Positions 44,414-61,326 of a stretch of DNA of 64,000 nucleotides are shown here, one piece after another (the first letter of the stretch is position 1; every line of letters begins with the position of its first letter). The DNA is taken from positions 1-64,000 of the forward strand of contig PBIO01000014.1 in the NCBI GenBank assembly GCA_002720865.1. Reading direction: 5' to 3'. A program made the position numbers and the translations under genes. A model generated the notes under the pieces. The model had not been told where the DNA came from. It saw only the letters and a list, made by a program, of their open reading frames with translations, and ran no database searches. The DNA comes from Halobacteriovorax sp. (lineage in GTDB: Bacteria; Bdellovibrionota; Bacteriovoracia; Bacteriovoracales; Bacteriovoracaceae).

Positions 44414-44818
44414 ATGTCTAAAGATCCTAAAAGTTTATTAAAAATTGCAGTTGTAGATGATGCCGACTTTTCACGTAAAACAGTCGTAGAAATCTTAGAA
44501 AAAAATGATTTTGAAGTCGTAGGTCAAGCTGGTAATGCTGAGGACGCCATTGGAATGATCTCTAGTACCAAGGCAAACCTATTTCTAATAGATGTCGTTA
44601 TGCCTAACATAAGTGGAATGGAGCTAGCCAAGAAGCTTTCAGAAGTCTCTAACAGACCAATTACTATTATTATGATGTCGAGTCTTGATTTAGAGAATAT
44701 CATTATTGAATCCATTTCAAATGGTGCAATTGATTTTATCGCAAAGCCTTTTGATGCAGATACTCTTATTAAATCTGTTACGAAAGTCGCAAACGATATG
44801 CTTAAAGAAACCTTGTAG
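44414..44818 (+). CDS. CheY-like single-domain response regulator
   Basis: 134 residues, one receiver domain. The acidic pocket is in AVVDDADFS, the phosphoacceptor Asp is in NLFLIDVVMPNISGM (about residue 59), the conserved Thr/Ser is in IIMMSSLDL, and the Lys is in DFIAKPFDADT. No output domain, so it works by protein contact as CheY does. No cognate histidine kinase is nearby. Confidence 0.93.
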   Translation: MSKDPKSLLKIAVVDDADFSRKTVVEILEKNDFEVVGQAGNAEDAIGMISSTKANLFLIDVVMPNISGMELAKKLSEVSNRPITIIMMSSLDLENIIIESISNGAIDFIAKPFDADTLIKSVTKVANDMLKETL

Positions 44819-44825
44819 GTGATAT

Positions 44826-45143
44826 ATGTTTTTAATTAAGTTTTTCCTTTATTTTTCAATTAGCTTTTTTATTCTAGCCATTCCGATTGGTGGAAACCCT
44901 ATTTTTTACAGTCTTGAAGAAGCCGCCAGACCCGTAACTGGAAAGCTATTTTCTTTTATGAAAGAAAGTTCTAGTGAAGGCATAAAAAAAGGGACTGCTG
45001 TCACAAAGAAGTTTTTCTCAAATACGATTCCGCCTAAAAAAGATATTGTTAAGAAAAAAGAAAGTGGAACGAAGAAGCCTTTAGGAAAATATACTGCTGA
45101 AGAAAAAGAGTTTCTTGAGAACATATTAAAAAAGGCCCAGTAG
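44826..45143 (+). CDS. Small membrane-anchored protein of unknown function
   Basis: 105 residues. A hydrophobic N-terminus (MFLIKFFLYFSISFFILAIPIGG) may be a signal or a membrane anchor, followed by a Lys-rich soluble part (IKKGTAVTKKFFS, KKESGTKKPLGKYTAEEKEF). No motif recognised. It follows the CheY-like gene by 7 bases with AGGTGATAT as ribosome-binding site, so both may be expressed together. Its 3' end overlaps the terminator of the convergent small exported protein gene. Confidence 0.6.
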   Translation: MFLIKFFLYFSISFFILAIPIGGNPIFYSLEEAARPVTGKLFSFMKESSSEGIKKGTAVTKKFFSNTIPPKKDIVKKKESGTKKPLGKYTAEEKEFLENILKKAQ

Positions 45144-45166
45144 CTACTTCTTTTCGCTAGTGGGCC
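45128..45166 (-). terminator. Intrinsic terminator of the 45192-45386 gene
   Basis: On the minus strand: GGCCCA-C-TAGC / GCTA-C-TGGGCC, a 10-bp stem with one C-C mismatch and an 11-base loop, followed by TTTTTT. It lies 26 bases behind the stop of the gene and overlaps the 3' end of the plus-strand 105-residue gene. Confidence 0.75.
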
Positions 45167-45191
45167 CAATATAATACCAGGATAATTTATT

Positions 45192-45386
45192 TTATTTTTT
45201 ACTAGTTTTAGAACCTGATTCTTTTTTACCTGCATCTGGTGCGTCGGTCTGAGTAGAAGCAACAACTTCTTGTCCTCTACTAGAGTCTTTACCTTTTACG
45301 CATTCACCTTTCATGTCTTCACCGTAACCGGCATAAGAAACATTCATGGCCAAAATAGCAAGCATCAATACGAATAGTGCTTTCAT
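45192..45386 (-). CDS. Small exported protein, GYGED family (paralogue 1)
   Basis: 64 residues. The signal peptide MKALFVLMLAILAMNVSYA ends at an AYA-like cleavage site. The mature part begins GYGEDMKGECVKGKDSSRGQ and ends in a Ser/Lys-rich low-complexity tail (KKESGSKTSKK). One Cys only, in GEC. I chose ATG 45386 with GGAGGAAGTT upstream; a longer frame opens at 45461. Almost the same core occurs in 47015-47212, with an own sigma-54-like promoter and terminator. Family not recognised. Confidence 0.8.
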   Translation of the reverse strand: MKALFVLMLAILAMNVSYAGYGEDMKGECVKGKDSSRGQEVVASTQTDAPDAGKKESGSKTSKK

Positions 45387-45436
45387 AACTTCCTCCAAAT
45401 CCCCTACATGGGGGTAAGTTTGTTTGTTATGGTAGT

Positions 45437-45452
45437 TGCACGTCAGATGCCA
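45437..45452 (-). promoter_or_regulatory. Sigma-54-like promoter of paralogue 1
   Basis: The minus strand reads TGGCATCTGACGTGCA: GG and GC are separated by exactly ten bases, as in the -24/-12 consensus TGGCAC-N5-TTGC. Predicted start about 45426, leaving a leader of about 40 bases. An equivalent element precedes the paralogue at 47212. Confidence 0.55.
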
Positions 45453-45529
45453 AGAATCCACTAGTAATTACAGATACTTAGAAAAAGATATCTGTTGATC
45501 AATCTATAGGGTGCTCAAACTTTAGACAG

Positions 45530-46903
45530 CTAAGAAAAGATCCTGAAAATTTTTCTAATTAAGGATAGCTTTCCACCATAGGGTGGATATCTTAAAGGAA
45601 GATCCCAAAAGAGGTACCTTTTCATGATGCTTTTAAGATGACTAAAAGTATCAAAGCTTTTTTGCCCATGATAGCTTCCCATACCACTAGAACCTACCCC
45701 GCCAAAAGGAAGAGTTTCAGAACTTAAATGAACAATTGTATCGTTAATACAAAGTCCGCCAGAAGAAATGAGTTCCCTCCAATCATTAATATTATTATCA
45801 CTATCGCTAAATATATAAGAGGCCAAAGGTTTAGGTTTTGATCTAACGAACTTAATTGCTTCCCTAATGTTTTCGAATTCAATTATAGGAAGAATGGGTC
45901 CAAATATTTCAGACTCCATTGATTTAGAAAACTCATTTGCCTCAAGTAACACAGGCCCCATAAAAAGTTTTTCACTATCTTTTCCATATTCAACCAGGAG
46001 TTTTTCATCTACTAGCATATTATCAAGGCGCTTAAAGTGTCTCGCGTTTACAATTCTTCCGTAATCTTCAGACGTACTAGGGTCACGATAAAATTCTTCT
46101 ACTATTTTTTTAAATAATCCGGCAACTTCACTAGCTTTACCTTTTTTAACTAAGAGATAATCCGGTGCTACACAGGTTTGCCCACTATTAAAATACTTAC
46201 CCCAGACTATCCGTCTTACCGCGAGCTCCATATTATGCACTTCAAAAAGGCCACAGGGACTCTTCCCCCCGAGCTCTAATGTGACTGGTGTCAAATGCTT
46301 AGCCGCCGCCTCCATAACAATCTTTCCTACAAACTCATTTCCCGTATAGAAGATATAATCAAAGTTTAACTTTAATAATGCTGTTGTCTCTGGAACTTCT
46401 CCTTCGACAACGGCCACCTGTTCTTCCCTAAAATATTTAGGAACCAGTTCTGCTGCTAATTTCGAGGTCGCTGGGGCCACTTCACTTGGCTTAAGAATAG
46501 CTGTATTTCCGGCTGCCAAAGCACCCACCAAAGGAGAAAAGAGTAACTGGAAGGGATAATTCCATGGCGAAATAATAAGTGTCACTCCGAGAGGTTCTGC
46601 TTGAATATAACTTCTCGCTGGGAACTGAAGAAGCGGAGAGCTGACTCTTCTTTTCTTCATCCATTTTTTTAACTTCTTAATGGCATGACGAGCTTCACCT
46701 GCTACGTAGCCAGTCTCCCCTATAAACGATTCAAAGTTAGACTTTCCTAGGTCACTCTCAAGGGCCTTAAATATTGAAGCTTCGTTTTCTTCAATCATGT
46801 TAATTAATCTCTTTAAGGACTCTTTTCGAGCTTCTAATGGCTGAGTTTTTCCATCAAGGAAGAAGTTCTTCTGTTTTTCAAATAGTGTTTGGATTTCTTG
46901 CAT
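45530..46903 (-). CDS. Aldehyde dehydrogenase, class 3 type
   Basis: 457 residues, NAD(P)-dependent aldehyde dehydrogenase of the short class-3 form. Catalytic Cys in GQTCVAPDYLL, Glu in LELGGKSPCG, EIFGPILPI and LPFGGVGSSGMG near the end. It ends in a hydrophobic/basic tail (KLSLIRKIFRIFS) that could touch the membrane, as in fatty-aldehyde dehydrogenases. It lies between the two GYGED small-protein genes on the same strand but has own spacers on both sides, so cotranscription is doubtful. Confidence 0.92.
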   Translation of the reverse strand: MQEIQTLFEKQKNFFLDGKTQPLEARKESLKRLINMIEENEASIFKALESDLGKSNFESFIGETGYVAGEARHAIKKLKKWMKKRRVSSPLLQFPARSYIQAEPLGVTLIISPWNYPFQLLFSPLVGALAAGNTAILKPSEVAPATSKLAAELVPKYFREEQVAVVEGEVPETTALLKLNFDYIFYTGNEFVGKIVMEAAAKHLTPVTLELGGKSPCGLFEVHNMELAVRRIVWGKYFNSGQTCVAPDYLLVKKGKASEVAGLFKKIVEEFYRDPSTSEDYGRIVNARHFKRLDNMLVDEKLLVEYGKDSEKLFMGPVLLEANEFSKSMESEIFGPILPIIEFENIREAIKFVRSKPKPLASYIFSDSDNNINDWRELISSGGLCINDTIVHLSSETLPFGGVGSSGMGSYHGQKSFDTFSHLKSIMKRYLFWDLPLRYPPYGGKLSLIRKIFRIFS

Positions 46904-46933
46904 GAACCTATTATAGAGGTCTCCTACAAATAT

Positions 46934-46965
46934 AAAAAGCCCGGCATTAGGGGTACCGGGCTTTT
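46934..46965 (-). terminator. Intrinsic terminator of the 47015-47212 gene
   Basis: AGCCCGG (46938-46944) pairs with CCGGGCT (46956-46962) and A/T-runs lie on both sides, so it can work in both directions. On the minus strand it is 50 bases behind the gene stop. Confidence 0.8.
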
Positions 46966-47014
46966 ACTGACTTTCATCGCTCTAGGGGGGGAGAAGCGAT
47001 TATTGAATTTTTTA

Positions 47015-47212
47015 TTACTTCTTAGTTGTTTTGTTTCCAGAGTCCTTAGATTCTGCATCAGAAGCTGTAGATTGCCCTTGGACAACGACTTCTTGACCTC
47101 TGCTTGAATCCTTACCTTTTACACATTCACCCTTCATATCTTCACCGTAGCCGGCAAAACCGATGTTTGTAAAAGCGAAACCTAAAAACAATGCGATAAT
47201 TAACTTCTTCAT
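47015..47212 (-). CDS. Small exported protein, GYGED family (paralogue 2)
   Basis: 65 residues. The signal peptide MKKLIIALFLGFAFTNIGFA is followed by a mature part sharing GYGEDMKGEC...SSRGQEVV with the protein at 45192-45386 (23 identical residues in a row) and a similar Ser/Lys tail (SKDSGNKTTKK). The signal peptides and tails differ, so the core is under selection. Sigma-54-like promoter at 47250-47265, terminator at 46934-46965. Role unknown. Confidence 0.82.
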   Translation of the reverse strand: MKKLIIALFLGFAFTNIGFAGYGEDMKGECVKGKDSSRGQEVVVQGQSTASDAESKDSGNKTTKK

Positions 47213-47249
47213 CTCTACTCTCCTGGTATTGGTATATACCTATAACTAA

Positions 47250-47265
47250 TGCATAGTCGGTGCCA
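47250..47265 (-). promoter_or_regulatory. Sigma-54-like promoter of paralogue 2
   Basis: The minus strand reads TGGCACCGACTATGCA: -24 box TGGCAC complete, GG and GC ten bases apart. Predicted start about 47239, leader about 27 bases, containing the palindrome GGTATATACC (47231-47240). No activator gene (sigma-54 enhancer-binding protein) is in the window. Confidence 0.6.
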
Positions 47266-47341
47266 CTTTTGAGACGCCTATTTTCAAGAGATTATGTAAT
47301 TGTTTCAGTTAGGTTTTTGATGGCCGTCTAAACTTTAGACA

Positions 47342-47373
47342 TAAAAAAGCCCTTCTCAAAGGAAGGGCCTTTT
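47342..47373 (-). terminator. Intrinsic terminator of the 47406-47624 gene
   Basis: GCCCTTC (47349-47355) pairs with GAAGGGC (47362-47368) with a 6-base loop, T-rich on both sides. On the minus strand six T follow. It is 33 bases behind the gene stop. Confidence 0.8.
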
Positions 47374-47405
47374 ATTTAAGAGGTATTACAATATACTTTT
47401 TAAAA

Positions 47406-47624
47406 TTATTTCTTAATTAACTTACCAGTCTGAGGATCTTTAATATAACCTTCTGGTATTTCCTCTACTGGTTTTCCATCTACTATACTTTGTTTGATAC
47501 ACTTACAGCCTTTTAACTCGTCAGCACTACCACATCCTTCTTGATCTTCACCATAGCCTTTAGCGTCTTCAGCAAATGCCCCAAGTGACAATGTTAGTCC
47601 TAGAATAATTAGTAATGCTTTCAT
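47406..47624 (-). CDS. Small exported Cys-containing protein, distant GYGED-type
   Basis: 72 residues. A signal peptide MKALLIILGLTLSLGAFAEDA is followed by KGYGEDQEGCGSADELKGCKCIKQ, which keeps GYGED of the two paralogues but adds two more Cys, then EIPEGYIKDPQTGKLIKK. Three Cys in total. A TATAAT box (47653-47658) lies 29 bases upstream, so this gene seems to use the housekeeping sigma factor, unlike the others. Function unknown. Confidence 0.75.
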   Translation of the reverse strand: MKALLIILGLTLSLGAFAEDAKGYGEDQEGCGSADELKGCKCIKQSIVDGKPVEEIPEGYIKDPQTGKLIKK

Positions 47625-47739: not shown

Positions 47740-49368
47740 CTACATATTAAGGTTAACACCAGCCGGCTTAACAATACTTAGAAGTGATTGAAAGGCCTGA
47801 GTTACCTGTAGGGCCATTTTATGACCTGCCTTAGATTCAACCTTTTTAATCTCTCCGTAGTTGTCATAAGCGACATGGATTTTACCTACTTTTTCCATAG
47901 CAATCTCAACTGGCTTACCAAGTGAGTTGTACTTAAAGCTAAGAGTTCTCTTCTTTCCTTTATTTCCACTCTTATCGATCATTTTAGTGATACGACCTTT
48001 GTGATCATAGAAAAGTAAAACAGCTTTTCCTTTATTACTAACAGCTCTTTTTAGGTTCCCCTTCTTGTCGTATTGAAAAGAAGTTGTTCCTTTTTGGTTA
48101 GTAACCTTCGTAATTTTATTAAAACTTTTGTGGTACTCAAGCTGAACAAAGTCACCTTTAGTTGAGCTTTTCTTAACAAGAAGACCACGATCATTATAAT
48201 CAAAGGTTGTTACATGCTTTCCTCTGCTAATTTTTAGAGGTAGTGAACAACATTCCGAATATACTGTTTCAGTAGAAAGACCATTAATTACAGTGGCAAT
48301 TCTATAAGTATACTGACTTCCATCAGGACGAGTCTTGATTTCGTACTCGTACTTATTTGAAACTTCTTTTCCAAGTGAGTTTTTCTTAGTAACTAGAGTC
48401 CAATAATGGAATCTTGGGTTCTTTGGATTTGATTCGTACTTATATTTTGTAGAATCTCCATTTCTTGCCACAATCTCCTCAACAAATTGAGTTTTTCTTG
48501 TGTACTTGATTTTCATCTTAGATCCGTCAGAGTAAACAACTCCAACCATATTGTGCTTAGGATCGTAGTCATACTTGAAGACGTTTCCGACAACATCTTT
48601 AGACTCTACTAAGTTGTCTCCCTGATACTTGTAAAAAGACTTCTTATCACCAGCAGACCAAATATTCTTAATTTTTCCATCTGGGTACCAGTCAAAGAAA
48701 AGTTGCTTAGCTTGTGAATCCTTAATTGATTTAAGTGAACCGTCTTTATAAGAAAGGGCTACGAAGTAACCATTCTTATCCATCATCTTGCTTAGTTTTC
48801 CTTCTTTATTAAAGAATTCAACTTTGCCGTCATTATATACTCTTTTAAAACCTGTACTAACTTTATGAACTTGCTGAAGCCCTCTAGTATTAGAGTATAA
48901 AACTGTACCTGTAGCTAATTTAGCCTGTACATTAAATTTTTTCGCGTAAGCTTGTCTTAACTCAGCATCATTAACAAATTTATCTAAATAATTCTTTGCT
49001 ACTGATTCTGAAAGACTACTTCTCTTTCTCATGGCTGCTACAATTTTCTCCGCTGCAGCTTTTGGATCGACAGCTGTTTTTGGAGTAAATCGAGTTAGAG
49101 CACCAGACCCATTTTCATGAATAACTACGGAGCCATCAGCCGATACAGTTAGGTAAGTTTCATAGTCACTACCCCAACCAAATCCAAACCAACCTCTATC
49201 AGTAGATTTTGAGTTATAAGTTCTTACAATTTCCAAATCGTGACCACCACCAGGAACAATAATATCCGTATAAGATATATAAAAGTTCCCGTTTTTCAGG
49301 TTAACACCAGAAAAAGCTAGAGCTGGAAAGAGTAGTAAAAGTAAACTTAGCAATTTTAAATTCTTCAT
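47740..49368 (-). CDS. Secreted RHS/YD-repeat protein
   Basis: 542 residues. A signal peptide MKNLKLLSLLLLLFPALAFS precedes a DUF6531-like start (VNLKNGNFYISYTDIIVPGGG, LEIVRTYNSKS, GFGWGSDYETYL) and YD-type repeats such as GNVFKYDYDPKHNMVGVVY, KGDFVQLEYHKSFNKITKVTNQKG and KGKAVLLFYDHKGRITKMIDKSG. No C-terminal toxin domain or cleavage motif is visible; it ends soon after the repeats (NLNM). It sits next to the Tad locus with its own spacer (90 bases). Likely a surface or secreted beta-rich protein; role unknown. Confidence 0.85.
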   Translation of the reverse strand: MKNLKLLSLLLLLFPALAFSGVNLKNGNFYISYTDIIVPGGGHDLEIVRTYNSKSTDRGWFGFGWGSDYETYLTVSADGSVVIHENGSGALTRFTPKTAVDPKAAAEKIVAAMRKRSSLSESVAKNYLDKFVNDAELRQAYAKKFNVQAKLATGTVLYSNTRGLQQVHKVSTGFKRVYNDGKVEFFNKEGKLSKMMDKNGYFVALSYKDGSLKSIKDSQAKQLFFDWYPDGKIKNIWSAGDKKSFYKYQGDNLVESKDVVGNVFKYDYDPKHNMVGVVYSDGSKMKIKYTRKTQFVEEIVARNGDSTKYKYESNPKNPRFHYWTLVTKKNSLGKEVSNKYEYEIKTRPDGSQYTYRIATVINGLSTETVYSECCSLPLKISRGKHVTTFDYNDRGLLVKKSSTKGDFVQLEYHKSFNKITKVTNQKGTTSFQYDKKGNLKRAVSNKGKAVLLFYDHKGRITKMIDKSGNKGKKRTLSFKYNSLGKPVEIAMEKVGKIHVAYDNYGEIKKVESKAGHKMALQVTQAFQSLLSIVKPAGVNLNM

Positions 49369-49457: not shown

Positions 49458-50351
49458 TTAGACCTTTATATTAACTATTTTCATAATTACCCAAAGTCCC
49501 ACCAAATCGAGGGCAACTGCAATCAATAATGCAATAATTCCAAGGGGATGCGTAAACAGGGGCTTCATACTGGCCGGGTCGGATATGGTATAAACAGCGC
49601 CCAAAAGCCAAGGCATTGCAAAAATTGTATAACCCTGAAACATTCCCTGAGCCACGTAAGTATCTATTTTTTGTTGAAGCCTAACTCTTTCTCTAATCAC
49701 GTCAACAATTGTGTCAAAAGTCTCAGCTAAGTTACCACCGGTCTCCCTTAGGATATTTACACTAGCGACAAACATTTCATTATCTTCAGTTGGCACTCTA
49801 GTTACTAAACTTTCAAAACACTCATCGAGTGGAACACCAATCCTATTTTGTTGAAGGATAAGATTAAACTCTTGTGATAGTGGCGGCGGCATTTCATCTA
49901 CCACCATGCCAATTGACTGAGGAACACTTAGTCCGGCCCTTAAACCATTAGCCAGTAATTGAAGCCCATCTACCATCTGAAGGCTATAGGCCTTTACTCG
50001 TTTTTTTACGAGGTAATTTATTAATGGCTTTGGTATACGAAACCCTAAAAAAGAAAAGAAAGCTCCAAGTATAAATCCGAGGGGCCAACTAACAAAAGCT
50101 CCCACTAAGAATAGGACAAAAACTCCGGAACCTATCGAGGCCCCGAGTAGGATATATGTTAGCTTATCTTCTTCAAACTCAATAAAGAGAAGCTCTAACT
50201 TCTCCATGATATAAGAGCGAGTTCCAAAGGTCTGATCTTCAACCCATTTAAAAATCGCCATACTGTATTTAAAACAGAACATAAAAACCGTTATGCCGAC
50301 GATTCCTACAACTAATGGTCTAGTGAGAAGTCCTGCCTCTGCCGCACCCAT
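49458..50351 (-). CDS. Tad pilus inner-membrane platform protein (TadB/TadC type, GspF fold)
   Basis: 297 residues with about four to five spans. The cytoplasmic GspF/T2SF helix bundle is seen at QMVDGLQLLANGLRAGLSVPQSIGMV and VASVNILRETGGNLAETFDTIVDVI. It is the only such gene here; Tad systems normally have two (TadB and TadC), so the partner lies elsewhere or this one suffices. It shares one base with the fused ATPase gene, which gives a coupled operon. Confidence 0.88.
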   Translation of the reverse strand: MGAAEAGLLTRPLVVGIVGITVFMFCFKYSMAIFKWVEDQTFGTRSYIMEKLELLFIEFEEDKLTYILLGASIGSGVFVLFLVGAFVSWPLGFILGAFFSFLGFRIPKPLINYLVKKRVKAYSLQMVDGLQLLANGLRAGLSVPQSIGMVVDEMPPPLSQEFNLILQQNRIGVPLDECFESLVTRVPTEDNEMFVASVNILRETGGNLAETFDTIVDVIRERVRLQQKIDTYVAQGMFQGYTIFAMPWLLGAVYTISDPASMKPLFTHPLGIIALLIAVALDLVGLWVIMKIVNIKV

Positions 50352-52555
50352 TATTTAGCCTTCTTTACCGGTTTCTGTTTTTTAACCGGTTGTTTCTTAT
50401 CAATAGGTTCTGGATTCTTGTCAGCAGGTGGTAACTTGTCTGCTCCAGGAGGAGCATCATTTCGAAATAATCCTCTTGGGATTTTATAACCTTTCTTTTC
50501 AAGGACTTCGATGAATTTTGGAATAAAACCAGTTGCCTGGAATTCTCCTTCAATCTTCCCTTGCTTATTGATTCCTTTTTGATTGAACAAAAAGATATCT
50601 TGCAGAGTCACAACATCTCCCTGCATCCCTCCGATTTCTGTAATATGAGTCATCCTTCTTGAGCCATCATCAAGTCTAGACTGCTGAATTATCAAATGCA
50701 CTGAGGCAGCAATCATTTCTCTAATTGCTTTAGGACTTAGGCCCGCGCCTGCATATTGAACTAGAGTTTCTAAACGACCAATACATTCCCTTGGATTATT
50801 AGAGTGAACTGTAGTCATTGAACCATCGTGACCTGTACCCATGGCCTGAAGCATATCTAAGGTTTCACCACCCCGGCACTCCCCAACCACAATTCGATCA
50901 GGTCTCATCCTTAATGTTTGTTTAACCAGACAGCGAATATCAATTTCCCCATCACCTTCTAGAGATGGAGGCCTTGTTTCTAGTCTAACGACGTGATCTT
51001 GTGGAAAGTCCAATTCAGCAGAGTCTTCACAAGTGATAATACGTTCATTAGCTTGTATAAAACTTCCTAAAATATTAATAAGAGTCGTTTTACCAGAACC
51101 AGTACCACCAGAGACCACGATATTTCTATGTCCCTCAACGGCAATTCTTAAAAAGTCAGCCATATTTTGTGTAATAGAGCCAAACTTTACATAATCTTTA
51201 TAAGTTAACCTGTTCTCTGGAAATTTACGTATGGTAATCGTACAACCATCAAGAGCTGAAGGAGGAATGATAGCGTGAACCCTTGAGCCGTCATGCAGAC
51301 GCGCATCGACGTAAGGAGTTTTTTCATCAATCCTTCTTCCAATCGGAGCAACAATCCTTTCAATCACATTGAGCACCTGTCGGTCATTAGTAAAGGTCAC
51401 CGTTGATTTCTTTACCTTCCCACCGTGTTCATAAAAAATCTTCTCAGGACCAACCACCATGATTTCAGAAATACTCTTATCTGAAAGAAGATCCTCTAGT
51501 GGTCCAAGACCAAGGGCCTCGTCTAGAATTTCTTTAACAATCTGGTTCATATCCTCCCGACTCTCAAGAATTCCTTTCGTATCTTCCTTATTTAGAATTT
51601 CAACCACTACTTTTTTGGTTTGCTCTCTAAGAATAACCTGTGCCTTGGGATCATTATCATCAGATTTTTTTAAGTCCATTTCTTCTACTAAGGCTCTATG
51701 AATTCTTGACTTGAGATCGGTCCAGCTATTTTTACTGGCCACATCAGCTTTGCTACCAGGAGCATCTTTTTTAGCTGTAGTTCCAGTTGGCTTGTTTAAT
51801 TTTGCAAGGGACTTTAAAACACTTTTTTGAATTAATTTTCTAACTGTATCTTGCACACCATTGGCAAACGGCTTTCCCTTAGCAGCAATCATGGCAACAG
51901 TTTTTTTCTGCAGAGCCGCGACACAGGAACCATCATCCTTTGCAATGGCATTGAATACAGCTTTTCCCATTTGTTTCCCAATAACTTCAGGAGTTACTGG
52001 ATGTCCCTTTTGATATTGGTTCAAGAGAAGCTGAATCATATCTCTTGGAAAGAGCATTGTAGTGAGTTCTGAATTTAGCCTACGTGTTTGATTAACCGCC
52101 AAAATATCCGGAGTTACGACTAAGAAGATTAATGTGGAGAATTCTAATCCTTTCAAAGAAAGCTCAGTTAAGTCACTTCCACCATCAATAATAGTAATTG
52201 GAAAAATATTTGGAATGGCCTTTAGAGCTTTTCCAACTCCATCAGCGTTTACACTGGCCGCAGCCGTTGCATCTGAAGGCATACCAATATAACTTACACC
52301 GGCCTGATGAGAACCAATAAATTGCTGAATTGATCTAGGATCAATTGCACCATTAAACTCAGACAGATCTTTTACTGTTTTTTTTGATTTAATACCGGTT
52401 ATAAAGTCCTGATCTCCACCAGCCTTTTGATCAAAATCCAAAAGAAGAACTTTTTGTCTTGTCTCTTGAGCGTAAGCGAAGGCTAGGTTAGCGGCAACTT
52501 GTGATTTACCCAAACCTCCCTTTCCACCAATAATAGAGATTATATGACCGGCCAT
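50351..52555 (-). CDS. Fused TadZ/CpaE-CpaF: MinD-like ATPase joined to pilus assembly ATPase
   Basis: 734 residues. Residues 1 to about 255 form a ParA/MinD-like domain with the deviant Walker A GGKGGLGKSQVAANLA. A Lys/Ala-rich linker (about 256-280) leads to the CpaF/TadA secretion ATPase (about 280-690): VSEIMVVGPEKIFYEH, Walker A VVSGGTGSGKTTLINIL, RIVVGECRGGETLDMLQAMGTGH and MIAASVHLIIQQSRL. A Pro/Lys tail follows. CpaE positions the machine and CpaF powers pilin polymerisation; here both reside in one chain. I see no stop or frameshift between them. Confidence 0.93.
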   Translation of the reverse strand: MAGHIISIIGGKGGLGKSQVAANLAFAYAQETRQKVLLLDFDQKAGGDQDFITGIKSKKTVKDLSEFNGAIDPRSIQQFIGSHQAGVSYIGMPSDATAAASVNADGVGKALKAIPNIFPITIIDGGSDLTELSLKGLEFSTLIFLVVTPDILAVNQTRRLNSELTTMLFPRDMIQLLLNQYQKGHPVTPEVIGKQMGKAVFNAIAKDDGSCVAALQKKTVAMIAAKGKPFANGVQDTVRKLIQKSVLKSLAKLNKPTGTTAKKDAPGSKADVASKNSWTDLKSRIHRALVEEMDLKKSDDNDPKAQVILREQTKKVVVEILNKEDTKGILESREDMNQIVKEILDEALGLGPLEDLLSDKSISEIMVVGPEKIFYEHGGKVKKSTVTFTNDRQVLNVIERIVAPIGRRIDEKTPYVDARLHDGSRVHAIIPPSALDGCTITIRKFPENRLTYKDYVKFGSITQNMADFLRIAVEGHRNIVVSGGTGSGKTTLINILGSFIQANERIITCEDSAELDFPQDHVVRLETRPPSLEGDGEIDIRCLVKQTLRMRPDRIVVGECRGGETLDMLQAMGTGHDGSMTTVHSNNPRECIGRLETLVQYAGAGLSPKAIREMIAASVHLIIQQSRLDDGSRRMTHITEIGGMQGDVVTLQDIFLFNQKGINKQGKIEGEFQATGFIPKFIEVLEKKGYKIPRGLFRNDAPPGADKLPPADKNPEPIDKKQPVKKQKPVKKAK

Positions 52556-54064
52556 CTATCTCCTTCTCTTTCTAAACTTTCGTTTAATCTCTTCTGTTCC
52601 AGCAGAAGCTGATTCTAGAATCTCAGGAGTTACAAAAACTGCGAATTGACTTCTATTAGTTGTATAAGTTTTTCCTCTAATAAATTGAAAGAGTGCAGTA
52701 GCGCCATCAGCTGCCTCTTCATTTGGAAAAGGATCCTTGTCAAAATCGGTACTACTTCTATTGACGACGATACCGCCGATTACGGCTGAGTCTTTAGATT
52801 TAACAACAATGCTGGTTTTAATCTTATTATTAAGCTGTTCAGGAGAAACAGAATCCCCTTGATTAACACTAACATTAAGCCCAACACTTAATTCAACTTT
52901 TTCTTCCGCCAGTATCTTAGGTGTCACATTTAAATCAAATCCACCAGTCGTTGTTACCACTCTTTGAGTTTCACCTGATCCAACCGGAGTATTTTTTGAA
53001 ATTGATTTATTGATATTGGCTGCAAAATTATTTTTTACAATTATCACCCCTGACTGAATAACCCTAGCAAAGCCAGCATTTTTTGCAGAAGTTAACTTTG
53101 GAAAAAGGTTTGAAATCGTTCCCGAAAGAGTTCCCTCCGATCTTGTCGTAACAGATCCTGCTCCAGTTTTACCAAATGAAATTGAACCGCCACCACCAGA
53201 TAGCAATGGAGTCCATTTAAATCCAAAAATTTTGTTATAGTCTTTAGTTAATTCAACAAATTGAGTCGTAATTTTAACAAGCTTTGGAATAGGTGCTGGC
53301 TGTTTCTTAGGATTCACTTGAATAAAATTTTGAATTATAGATCTTCCTGCTTTTTGAACCGAGTCAGTTCTTCTCGCTAGGTTTTCTAATAAATCAGGAA
53401 TATAAGCTGCCGCAATACTCTCTGCCTTATTCCGATCAGGAACAGAACTTACGATACCCTCTAGCCAAAAGAGTCCATTTATAACTCTTACCGTAACATC
53501 TCTAAGCTGATTCTTTTGAATCTCCTCTTGCATCTTTCTAGCTATAATTTTTTGTGTATGAGGACTAAGCTCTACTAATCGTAAAACGTCTTTATATTTG
53601 TCTTTTTCAAGAACAACAACAACTCTCCCAATATCACCTGGAACAACGATTTTGCCACCGACATAAACATTATCACCGGCGATTCCGATCTCAAGGCCTT
53701 CAACAGCACCAAGAAGTTTTGGGTCTCTCAATTCTTGAACAATATTAGAAAGGTCATTAGCTGTAATATTTACGACATAAACAAGTTTTAGATCTCCAAC
53801 AGTATTTCTTAAAGAAACGGTTGTCTTCCCTGGCTTTATACCTTTAAGAATAATCTCTCTCTTGGATGGGATTAGGACATAATCTAAAAAGCTTGAATTA
53901 CCTACAAGAACATTTCTATCTACCGCGAAATCATACTTTTCAACTTTATCAATTCCGAGAACTATATCAACGTTCTTTTCGGGCACCTTTTCATCGTCTT
54001 TTGCTTGAGCAAACAAAACACTAGGAAAACTTAATGAAAGTATTAGTAATAGTCTAACGACCAC
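52556..54064 (-). CDS. cpaC: Tad outer-membrane secretin (CpaC/RcpA)
   Basis: 502 residues. Signal peptide MVVRLLLILSLSFPSVLFAQA. N-terminal pilus-assembly domain with NSSFLDYVLIPSKREIILKGIKPGKTTVSL, a BON-like region (RDVTVRVINGLFWLEGIVSSV), then a secretin domain from about residue 265 (KITTQFVELTKDYNKIFGFKW, FARVIQSGVIIVKNNFAANIN, FDLNVTPKILAEEKVELSV, SIVVKSKDSAVIGGIVVN). Forms the outer-membrane ring for the Flp pilus. Overlaps the cpaB gene by 11 bases. Confidence 0.93.
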   Translation of the reverse strand: MVVRLLLILSLSFPSVLFAQAKDDEKVPEKNVDIVLGIDKVEKYDFAVDRNVLVGNSSFLDYVLIPSKREIILKGIKPGKTTVSLRNTVGDLKLVYVVNITANDLSNIVQELRDPKLLGAVEGLEIGIAGDNVYVGGKIVVPGDIGRVVVVLEKDKYKDVLRLVELSPHTQKIIARKMQEEIQKNQLRDVTVRVINGLFWLEGIVSSVPDRNKAESIAAAYIPDLLENLARRTDSVQKAGRSIIQNFIQVNPKKQPAPIPKLVKITTQFVELTKDYNKIFGFKWTPLLSGGGGSISFGKTGAGSVTTRSEGTLSGTISNLFPKLTSAKNAGFARVIQSGVIIVKNNFAANINKSISKNTPVGSGETQRVVTTTGGFDLNVTPKILAEEKVELSVGLNVSVNQGDSVSPEQLNNKIKTSIVVKSKDSAVIGGIVVNRSSTDFDKDPFPNEEAADGATALFQFIRGKTYTTNRSQFAVFVTPEILESASAGTEEIKRKFRKRRR

Positions 54065-54878
54065 TTATACCTCTCCCTTTATTTTTCTCATTAAAGAAAG
54101 CTTTTGCCTCGGCTGCATCTTCTGCTCCAAGAACATCAAAAATCTTGATTCCTCTAATTCTTTCGATTTTCTTATCATTATTATTTCTAAGAGTTAGATA
54201 TGGTGGGACACCAGAATAAGTTAAAAGATAAACTAATTTTTGAGCCTCGTAGGGGTCTAGCTCTAGTGTAACAGTATTATATTTACTATAAGTGGCAACA
54301 TTCATTTTTTTAATAACTGGTGGGACCTTCACTCCAATGATTGGAATCGAGTTTGTCATACTCATCCCCGTTGAAAGAATCAGGACGTCTTGAAGAATTG
54401 TTTTAATTTTTTGTAAGTCTTTCCTACCAGGAGCATAGTTAATTGAAGCCAGGACATCGACACGATCTCCTGGTTTCAATAATTTACTAACCGCTTGGTT
54501 CTCTGTGATTTGAATAGCTACCGCTCTTTTACCAACGGAAACTTGTCTTGCTAAACCTGTTCTTGCACCGGGAAAGATAACTCTTGGTTTTGTTATCTGC
54601 TCGCCCTTTCGAATCGGCACTGTTGCAACGGTGTTTTCAACTTCAGAAATTTTTGAAAAACCACCTGGCATCTTAAAGTTCTTAGGAACTGGCTTAATGG
54701 TTACTTTTGAATCATCGATCAACTCTAATTCAGCAATATCCTTTTTGGCGATAACAACTGTTGTCTTGGTTCCATACTGTTGAGTAATTTGAGTTTCTTT
54801 ATCATCAATATAGGTATTAACCATGAGGGCCGCCAGAGCAGCAATTATCAAGGCTAAGGTAAACGCGCGCGTATTCAT
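54054..54878 (-). CDS. cpaB: Tad pilus assembly protein CpaB/RcpC
   Basis: 274 residues. N-terminal membrane anchor MNTRAFTLALIIAALAALMV, then a SAF domain (VVIAKKDIAELELIDDSKV) and the RcpC/CpaB core AVAIQITENQAVSKLLKPGDRVDVLASI. It is thought to link the secretin with the periplasmic part of the Tad machine. It overlaps the cpaC start and begins 82 bases after the second TadE-like gene. Confidence 0.92.
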   Translation of the reverse strand: MNTRAFTLALIIAALAALMVNTYIDDKETQITQQYGTKTTVVIAKKDIAELELIDDSKVTIKPVPKNFKMPGGFSKISEVENTVATVPIRKGEQITKPRVIFPGARTGLARQVSVGKRAVAIQITENQAVSKLLKPGDRVDVLASINYAPGRKDLQKIKTILQDVLILSTGMSMTNSIPIIGVKVPPVIKKMNVATYSKYNTVTLELDPYEAQKLVYLLTYSGVPPYLTLRNNNDKKIERIRGIKIFDVLGAEDAAEAKAFFNEKNKGRGISGR

Positions 54879-59380: not shown

Positions 59381-60214
59381 CTATCCGAGTAACTTTAACG
59401 CCAAGTTCGGTGCTTGATTTGCTTGCGATAGTACCGATGTCCCCGACTGAACAAGGATGTTGTTTCTGGCGAGGTCAGCAGTTTCTGCTGCCACGTCGAC
59501 ATCCCTAATTCTAGACTTTGCTGCACTGAGGTTCTCATCTGCAATGCCCAAAGTATTAATAATCGAGGAGAGGCGGTTCTGGGTCGCACCCAATTCTGAC
59601 CTAACTCCGTTAATGTTGACCAAAGCATCATCAAGTTTCTTAAGAGAAAGTTGTGCACCTTCTTTGGTCGCAACAGACTCAGCTCCAAGCCCAAGGGCCG
59701 TAAGCGTTGCCGTGTTAGTGGTGCCGTCATAGCGCAATCTATCCAGCAGTGGGCTGTTGTGAATGCCGACTTGGAATTCCATAAGACCACCGGTGCCATC
59801 AAGTAGCTTGGTCCCATTAAACTCAGAAGATTTTGCGATCCTGTCGATCTCTTCTTTAAGTTTTTGAAATTCGATATCAGTAAATCCACGTTCAGTTGCT
59901 CCTACTGTATCCGAAGCTGCTTGAATTGAGAGTTCTCGTAGTCTGATAATAATATTCGAAATCTCATTCAATCCACCTTCTGCTGTTTGTATTAATGATA
60001 TAGCATCCCCAGCATTTCTTTTGGCTTGCCTACCACCTCTTATTTGCGCTCTTAAGTTTTCACTTATAGCTAATCCTGCCGCATCATCTGAGGCTTGAGT
60101 AATTCTCTCCCCGGATGATAGCTTTCTAAAGTTATCATTCATATTACGGGAGTTAATCCCCAATGTTCTCTGCGCTGCGAGCGAGCTAACATTAGTGTTA
60201 ATTCGTAGTCCCAT
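59381..60214 (-). CDS. fliC: Flagellin
   Basis: 277 residues, a short flagellin without an extra outer domain. N-terminal D0/D1: MGLRINTNVSSLAAQRTLGI, ERITQASDDAAGLAISENLRAQIRG; C-terminal D1/D0: LSAAKSRIRDVDVAAETADL, then NNILVQSGTSVLSQANQAPNLALKLLG. Polymerises into the filament after export by the flagellar type III system. GAAGGAG precedes the start. The leader (60215-60477) carries two short open frames with good ribosome-binding sites. About half identical to the neighbouring flagellin. Confidence 0.96.
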   Translation of the reverse strand: MGLRINTNVSSLAAQRTLGINSRNMNDNFRKLSSGERITQASDDAAGLAISENLRAQIRGGRQAKRNAGDAISLIQTAEGGLNEISNIIIRLRELSIQAASDTVGATERGFTDIEFQKLKEEIDRIAKSSEFNGTKLLDGTGGLMEFQVGIHNSPLLDRLRYDGTTNTATLTALGLGAESVATKEGAQLSLKKLDDALVNINGVRSELGATQNRLSSIINTLGIADENLSAAKSRIRDVDVAAETADLARNNILVQSGTSVLSQANQAPNLALKLLG

Positions 60215-60216
60215 GG

Positions 60217-60234
60217 TTAATCTCCTTCAAACAT
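60217..60234 (-). promoter_or_regulatory. Mini-ORF MFEGD directly ahead of the flagellin start
   Basis: ATG-TTT-GAA-GGA-GAT-TAA with AGGAGG six bases upstream (60241-60246). Its own codons contain the flagellin ribosome-binding site GAAGGAG, and its stop is two bases from the flagellin ATG. Translating it would compete with, or couple to, flagellin translation. Confidence 0.4.
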
Positions 60235-60384
60235 AACTTACCTCCTGTAAAACTGCCGGACTCCTGTCCTTGTATTCGTTAATATTAGTTTTTCTTTTTT
60301 TCTCGTTTAGTTACACATAGTTTTTACTGTTAATTTTTTTTAGAACAATCGACCATTGCAGTGTAATCAACTGTTCTCGTATAT

Positions 60385-60411
60385 TTATCCGTTCGTTTCG
60401 TAATCCAACAT
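60385..60411 (-). promoter_or_regulatory. Mini-ORF MLDYETNG in the flagellin leader
   Basis: ATG 60411 to TAA 60385, preceded by AGGAGAG with TACT as spacer. Eight codons. The rest of the 263-base spacer is AT-rich; no terminator or clear promoter for the flagellin at 60214 was found, so read-through from the flagellin at 60478 is possible. Confidence 0.3.
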
Positions 60412-60477
60412 AGTACTCTCCTATTAGTTGTTTGCATTTGCATAAGCATTTAAACCATTCCTTCCAAAACGCTATTC

Positions 60478-61326
60478 CTAACCTTGAGCTGCTGCTTGGA
60501 TTAGTGATAGGGCGTTCTTTGTTGAAGAGTTCGCTTGCGCTAATACTGAAGTACCTGCCGACATTAGAATATTATTCTTAGTCAGGTTGGCTGTCTCAGC
60601 GGCAACGTCAGTGTCTCTTACCCTGGAGTTAGCTGCAGATAAGTTTTCTATACTTACTGCGATGTTGTTAATGGTCGACTGCAAACGGTTTTGGAGTGCA
60701 CCAAAGTCAGCACGAATCCCGGAAACCGAAATAATAGACTGGTCAATTGCGGCCAAAGAGTTCTGTGCAGAAATCTTATCAGCAACCGAAGCCAAGTTTA
60801 GTCCTAGAGCAGCTACGTTAACGTCGGCGCTTGAAGCGTCGAATGTTAAACGGTCAGCGATAGGATCATTACGAGTACCAATTTGAATATCAAATACAGC
60901 ACCAGTACCATTCAGAAGTGGAACGCGGTTAAACTCAGTAGAGTTTGCGATACGATCAATTTCTGATGTTAATTGCTCAAACTCAACATTAAGAAACTTT
61001 CTTTCAGTTGGTCCAATAGTATCCGAAGCGGCCTGTACGGCAAGCTCTCGAAGCCTAATCAGAATGTTTGAAACTTCACTAAGGGCACCCTCAGCGATTT
61101 GAACTAATGAGATGCCATCCTCAGCATTTCTTTCAGCTTGTCCTAAACCTCTAATTTGAGCTTTAAGGTTCTCTGAAATGGCTAGCCCTGCAGCGTCGTC
61201 CCCTGCACGGTTAATTCTTTGCCCTGAAGATAACTTCTCGAGCGATTTGTCCATCTGCAAACGCGTACCTCTCAAATTCCTTTGAGCGTTAAGCGAAGCG
61301 ACGTTCGTGTTAATTCGAAGTCCCAT
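60478..61326 (-). CDS. fliC: Flagellin (paralogue)
   Basis: 282 residues. Start MGLRINTNVASLNAQRNLRG, KLSSGQRINRAGDDAAGLAISENL, end NNILMSAGTSVLAQANSSTKNALSLIQ. Same short architecture as its neighbour with no hypervariable middle. AAGGAGGATACC is an excellent ribosome-binding site. A sigma-28-like promoter (61418-61444) lies 92 bases ahead. The two genes look like a tandem duplication that has since diverged; differing roles in one filament are known for predatory Bdellovibrio flagellins, but cannot be read here. Confidence 0.97.
   Translation of the reverse strand: MGLRINTNVASLNAQRNLRGTRLQMDKSLEKLSSGQRINRAGDDAAGLAISENLKAQIRGLGQAERNAEDGISLVQIAEGALSEVSNILIRLRELAVQAASDTIGPTERKFLNVEFEQLTSEIDRIANSTEFNRVPLLNGTGAVFDIQIGTRNDPIADRLTFDASSADVNVAALGLNLASVADKISAQNSLAAIDQSIISVSGIRADFGALQNRLQSTINNIAVSIENLSAANSRVRDTDVAAETANLTKNNILMSAGTSVLAQANSSTKNALSLIQAAAQG

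Follow-up and report, generated by a model that had tools for sequence, protein, structure and literature searches.

Organization of the locus

The window, that is, the whole 64,000-nucleotide stretch of Halobacteriovorax sp. DNA analysed here, comes from a 4.9 Mb genome of the Bacteriovoracaceae type whose nearest named relatives are Halobacteriovorax MAGs, in keeping with an earlier note, made from the letters alone, that took the organism for a probable predator. That note singled out three small genes, here called A, B and C, which lie past a gene for an exported YD/RHS-repeat protein and a run of Tad/Flp pilus genes. Small genes of the kind of C are referred to as type 1, those of the kind of A and B as type 2. 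The features are as follows.

about 45133-45167, minus strand: imperfect, longer stem with a T run 3' of A, common to A and the convergent gene
45192-45386, minus strand: gene A (type 2), 64 aa, single Cys, with a sigma-54 promoter
45261-45329, minus strand: 23-residue core GYGED...QEVV of A
45437-45452, minus strand: sigma-54 promoter of A, TGGCATCTGACGTGCA (GG-N10-GC), starting 66 nt before the ATG
45530-46903, minus strand: aldehyde dehydrogenase gene between B and A
46935-46965, minus strand: terminator of B, a clear hairpin
47015-47212, minus strand: gene B (type 2), 65 aa
47084-47152, minus strand: 23-residue core of B
47250-47265, minus strand: sigma-54 promoter of B, TGGCACCGACTATGCA, starting 53 nt before the ATG
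47349-47368, minus strand: terminator of C, a clear hairpin
47406-47624, minus strand: gene C (type 1), 72 aa, three Cys, adjoining the RHS gene in the position of Bd0108, with no sigma-54 promoter
47740-49368, minus strand: exported YD/RHS-repeat protein, the counterpart of Bd0109 (33% identity over 554 aa, E 7e-98)
49458-54878, minus strand: Tad/Flp pilus genes (TadB-like, TadA-like ATPase, RcpA-like, RcpC/CpaB-like), corresponding to bd0110-bd0113/4

All three small genes are real and their products exported, as the note had claimed. The likely start of A is the ATG at 45386, which has a good RBS; the mechanical list of open reading frames runs further, to a GTG. The view that each gene has its own terminator holds for B and C, while A has only the imperfect stem. 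Similarly, the note had grouped the three proteins into one family, and A and B are indeed paralogous. C has GYGED in common with them at its start and carries three Cys, as described, but it represents a different class, set apart as the first gene past the RHS gene, by its multiple Cys and by the missing sigma-54 promoter. None of the three has a match above the curated cut-off in Pfam or NCBIfam; the family is genuine and without a database entry, as proposed, yet its members are not orphans. In a charge-hydropathy plot, A, B, C, Bd0108 and the small HD100 protein ORF2 discussed below all fall on the disordered side. Two adjoining flagellin-like genes, named from sequence, are found near the Tad locus at 59381-61326.

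Conservation of the gene order

Compared with the hit (host-interaction) locus of Bdellovibrio bacteriovorus HD100, a genome recognized by its exact match to a published primer, the window has the same gene order, with identities of 47% for TadA, 38% for TadB, 32% for RcpA and 34% for CpaB. With a single protein as query and a permissive cut-off, 17 of 59 related genomes were found to have relatives. Many Bacteriovoracaceae genera were matched at full length by a 15-row profile, in most cases twice, the copies being separated by a few hundred to 1,800 bases; its overall tally of 124 out of 129 genomes cannot be equated with presence of the family, since many of the weak matches cover the signal peptide alone. 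The common core can be written G-E-x3-5-C-x4-Q-S-x-R, and many of the family's genera have it, so that the lack of conservation which the note had named as a ground for dismissing its proposal is not what is seen.

The 40 Bacteriovoracaceae loci, which were selected by profile match, have a near-invariant order: the Tad genes, the RHS gene (missing from only a few), one to three small exported genes, in some cases joined by an aldehyde dehydrogenase gene, and finally a receiver-domain gene in convergent orientation and Lon. As only some genera carry the aldehyde dehydrogenase between B and A while others lack it at the same place, it is not part of the core module. The receiver-domain protein (44414-44818 in the window) stands alone, is convergent to the small genes, adjoins Lon and is present in almost every locus of the family; it is a possible regulator, although it lacks a sigma-54 activator domain. 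A small exported gene lies within 200 nt downstream of the RHS gene in 38 Bacteriovoracaceae loci. In most loci of the family the type 1 gene starts about 110-140 bases past the RHS match (118 nt past the last matched RHS position for C), the type 2 gene corresponding to B about 450-550 bases past it, and a further type 2 gene, corresponding to A, beyond.

The loci outside the family were picked by the RHS protein alone and are therefore independent of the small genes. The Bd0109 protein was found in 62 of 66 Bdellovibrionaceae genomes, where a Bd0108-like gene lies downstream and, in most loci, a second small exported gene follows about 400-600 bases past the RHS gene, sometimes with a third; the second one was found without using the family of the window as a query. 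In several Bdellovibrio species (loci L140, L142-L144, L146 and L147) there is a third such gene about 900-970 bases past the RHS gene, again small and exported and provided with a sigma-54 site. In about twenty other families of the phylum, 73 of 76 genomes have a Bd0109-like protein, and many have both type 1-like and type 2-like genes, many of the latter with sigma-54 sites; the most distant families often have one small gene only. It is worth adding that only proteins with one Cys were kept in the type 2 sets, which makes the single Cys of this class partly a matter of construction. The order of Tad operon, Bd0109-like RHS gene, type 1 (C or Bd0108) and type 2 (B and A) is shown by these computations.

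Sigma-54 promoters of the type 2 genes

A strict motif, TGGC[AGT]-N7-TGC[ATC], was found upstream of 65 of 75 type 2 genes in the Bacteriovoracaceae and 29 of 48 in the Bdellovibrionaceae, and upstream of no type 1 gene in either family (0 of 38 and 0 of 50). The remaining promoters, when read, showed TGC replaced by CGC or AGC with the spacing unchanged. With the motif widened accordingly, the counts for type 2 become 67 of 75 and 48 of 48, against 0 of 38 and 2 of 50 for type 1; of the two, the strict count carries less bias, since the wider pattern was drawn up once the promoters of other Bdellovibrionaceae genera had been read. The widened motif has no match among 360 other genes of the same Bacteriovoracaceae loci and at most 0.5% in shuffled sequences, and shifting the spacing by one or two leaves nearly no matches. 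Absence of RpoN does not account for the missing strict motif in some Bdellovibrionaceae: RpoN is nearly universal (60 of 66 genomes), and the promoters in question have CGC for TGC. Further upstream elements were also noted, a palindrome TCTAAAGTTTAGA before B (47326-47343) and a similar TCTAAAGTTTGAG before A on the minus strand (45518-45530), which resemble a FliA -35 element or an operator.

Selection on the shared core

The core GYGEDMKGECVKGKDSSRGQEVV, 23 residues long, is the same in A and B. As the earlier note had remarked, the two proteins differ in signal peptide and tail; the signal peptides are only 19% identical. At the codon level, 9 of 22 core codons differ, all of them synonymously and without any change of amino acid, so the identity is kept at the level of the protein. 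The pN/pS values of A, B and C against congeners are 0.37-0.42. Together, the synonymous changes and these values exclude chance or recent copying as the source of the identical cores. Recent gene conversion finds no support in the codons either; an older conversion may have taken place. Across type 2 pairs, the cores are more alike within genomes than between them (mean 0.52 versus 0.24) while the signal peptides stay different, a pattern of concerted or co-selected evolution.

The hit-locus small RNA of Bdellovibrio

The counterpart of A and B in HD100 lies at a place already known for its transcript. A "small non-coding RNA" of 261 nt (96455-96716) was described at the hit locus from RNA-seq and RT-PCR (Capeness 2013, PMC3818213), and its level rises in bd0108 mutants (PMC3818213). 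We find the following type 2 gene inside it.

HD100 96483-96683, minus strand: ORF2, 66 residues, exported, with an RBS, a sigma-54-like promoter and a hairpin terminator

The two primers of the published RT-PCR both lie inside ORF2. In two species groups of close relatives, the pN/pS of ORF2 is 0.05 (three genomes) and 0.00 (three other genomes), as low as that of Bd0108, and ORF2 thus evolves as a protein-coding gene. The "non-coding small RNA" very probably encodes a conserved, predicted secreted protein. The published RNA-seq and RT-PCR signal would of course also be expected of a regulatory RNA, with ORF2 as an incidental or dual-function passenger, but the strong purifying selection at the protein level, the RBS and the signal peptide, together with a small exported ORF at the same place in other genera and families, make this reading very improbable.

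Matching C-terminal tails

For type 1 and type 2 proteins, the five C-terminal residues were compared within and between genomes, with one genome per genus for the Bacteriovoracaceae and Bdellovibrionaceae. The scores were 5.72 within versus 0.22 between genomes for 17 genera of Bacteriovoracaceae (none of 300 permutations as high), 5.43 versus -0.01 for 12 genera of Bdellovibrionaceae (P 0.003), and 3.76 versus -0.18 for 12 groups from other families (P 0.006), so the pairing is seen in three independent sets. No significant within-genome effect was seen for the signal peptides or for residues -10 to -6, the latter giving P 0.054 in the third set. Gene conversion is ruled against as the source of the matching tails, since the matched residues use the same codon at a rate of 0.41 versus 0.37 expected and nothing is alike past the stop. 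A tail that matches within each genome points to one partner in common, and selection by a partner that both types share is probably what maintains it.

Proposed role of the small proteins

In Bdellovibrio the hit locus governs the change between life on prey and solitary growth. It has been studied there through Bd0108, a disordered protein with an export signal that binds Bd0109 via residues 24-66 (PMC4267844). Mutation of bd0108 leads to prey-independent growth (PMC4267844, PMC3818213), and its deletion leaves far fewer pili (PMC3818213). We propose that A, B and C serve the hit locus as its small exported partners, acting, by analogy with Bdellovibrio, as disordered ligands of the periplasmic RHS protein that tune the state of the pilus and the mode of growth; we give this reading a probability of roughly 0.6. 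The note had listed host interaction as one option for these proteins, and in this it was right, although it missed the hit/Tad locus with its Bd0109-like RHS neighbour; its other suggestions, metal binding and envelope stress, have gained no specific support.

In the proposed mechanism, type 1 and type 2 proteins, short and probably disordered, would be exported by Sec to the periplasm and be bound there, as ligands, by the RHS protein and by one further partner able to read the common tail. Type 1 would be produced together with the pilus operon or close to it, and would keep the RHS protein and the pilus in the attack state. On loss of this state, sigma-54 would switch type 2 on, and type 2 may then compete with or replace type 1 and help the cell toward the growth mode. 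The use of the pilus signal in Halobacteriovorax may differ from that in Bdellovibrio. A bolder and more tentative possibility is that the scheme holds across the phylum, with two classes of disordered exported peptides, one Bd0108-like and made with the pilus operon, the other induced by sigma-54 (A, B and the HD100 "sRNA"), sharing a fast-evolving C-terminal tag and competing for one receptor as attack-or-grow ligands.

The small proteins could instead be accessories of the Tad pilus itself, serving its structure or its assembly (as tip, periplasmic chaperone or secreted cargo), the Bdellovibrio phenotype being a side effect of a broken pilus. The small genes always come after the Tad operon, deletion of bd0108 is reported to leave far fewer pili (PMC3818213), and predator Tad pili bear variable tip proteins (PMC12075869). 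On the other hand, the type 2 genes have sigma-54-type promoters and terminators of their own, apart from the pilus operon; the rise of the HD100 transcript on bd0108 mutation fits a response better than a structural part; and no pilin-like segment is seen in the small proteins, whose mature forms are short and polar. We consider such an accessory role unlikely.

Less likely still is that type 2 has nothing to do with the function of Bd0108 and consists of sigma-54-controlled stress peptides of the envelope, or redox peptides using their single Cys, that are neighbours of the hit locus by chance. Sigma-54 control is common among stress and metabolic genes, the one conserved Cys would suit a redox function, and type 2 has no sequence similarity to Bd0108. 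Chance neighbours, however, would hardly keep their position in many families of the phylum, match their tails to the type 1 tails of the same genome, or have an expression that is reported to depend on the bd0108 genotype.

The ligand reading bears on a question that is decades old, namely how Bdellovibrio and its relatives decide whether to grow on prey or without it. With A, B and C assigned to the hit locus, the switch module reaches into the Bacteriovoracaceae and apparently into much of the phylum. The locus gains a second class of proteins under sigma-54 control, and the published small RNA is reread as an mRNA; the common C-terminal tag is a concrete lead to the missing partner.

Comparison with known systems

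The gene bd0108 has been described as Bdellovibrio-specific. The Bd0108/Bd0109 hit locus of HD100 and the window share the order of genes past the Tad operon, and their RHS proteins are clearly homologous. C resembles Bd0108 in being the first downstream gene and in coding for a small, exported, probably disordered protein with Cys. It differs in having 72 aa and three Cys (C-x10-CKC, without CxxC) where Bd0108 has 101 aa and one CxxC, with no significant similarity between the two; the type 1 proteins of other Bacteriovoracaceae have CGECV, CGQCI or CPTCI, like the CRECI of Bd0108.

A and B, in turn, resemble the hit-locus small RNA of HD100, which likewise contains the second gene past the RHS gene; this gene has a sigma-54-type promoter to itself and codes for an exported protein of about 60 aa with a tail paired with that of type 1. 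Both A and B are found past type 1 in the hit locus and have these features of promoter, export and size. The HD100 gene differs in having been described as non-coding, in a protein without detectable similarity to A and B, and in being present in one copy rather than the two of the window. Profile-profile comparison (hhalign) of the mature regions between Bacteriovoracaceae and Bdellovibrionaceae gave E 0.08 with a probability under 1% for type 2 and nothing for type 1. A genome-wide search of HD100 with the mature type 2 profile did not find ORF2, and a full-length A1 profile placed Bd0108 as the top ORF of its own 19-kb locus, yet with 7.2 bits only. Sequence homology of A and B with ORF2, or of C with Bd0108, is not significant by these comparisons, so common descent of either pair would follow from context. 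We infer that C pairs with Bd0108, and A and B with ORF2, from position, export, size, promoter and tail pairing.

The closest parallel is in H. marinus SJ, where the Bd0109 homologue BMS_0182 has two small exported neighbours, BMS_0183 and BMS_0184, that are not homologous to Bd0108 (PMC4267844). As neighbours of a Bd0109 homologue they are like A, B and C, and they were mentioned there in passing only, with no description of a family, promoter or tail. In the probable genome of this strain, the RHS protein is 34% identical to Bd0109 and the small genes are members of the same families as A, B and C.
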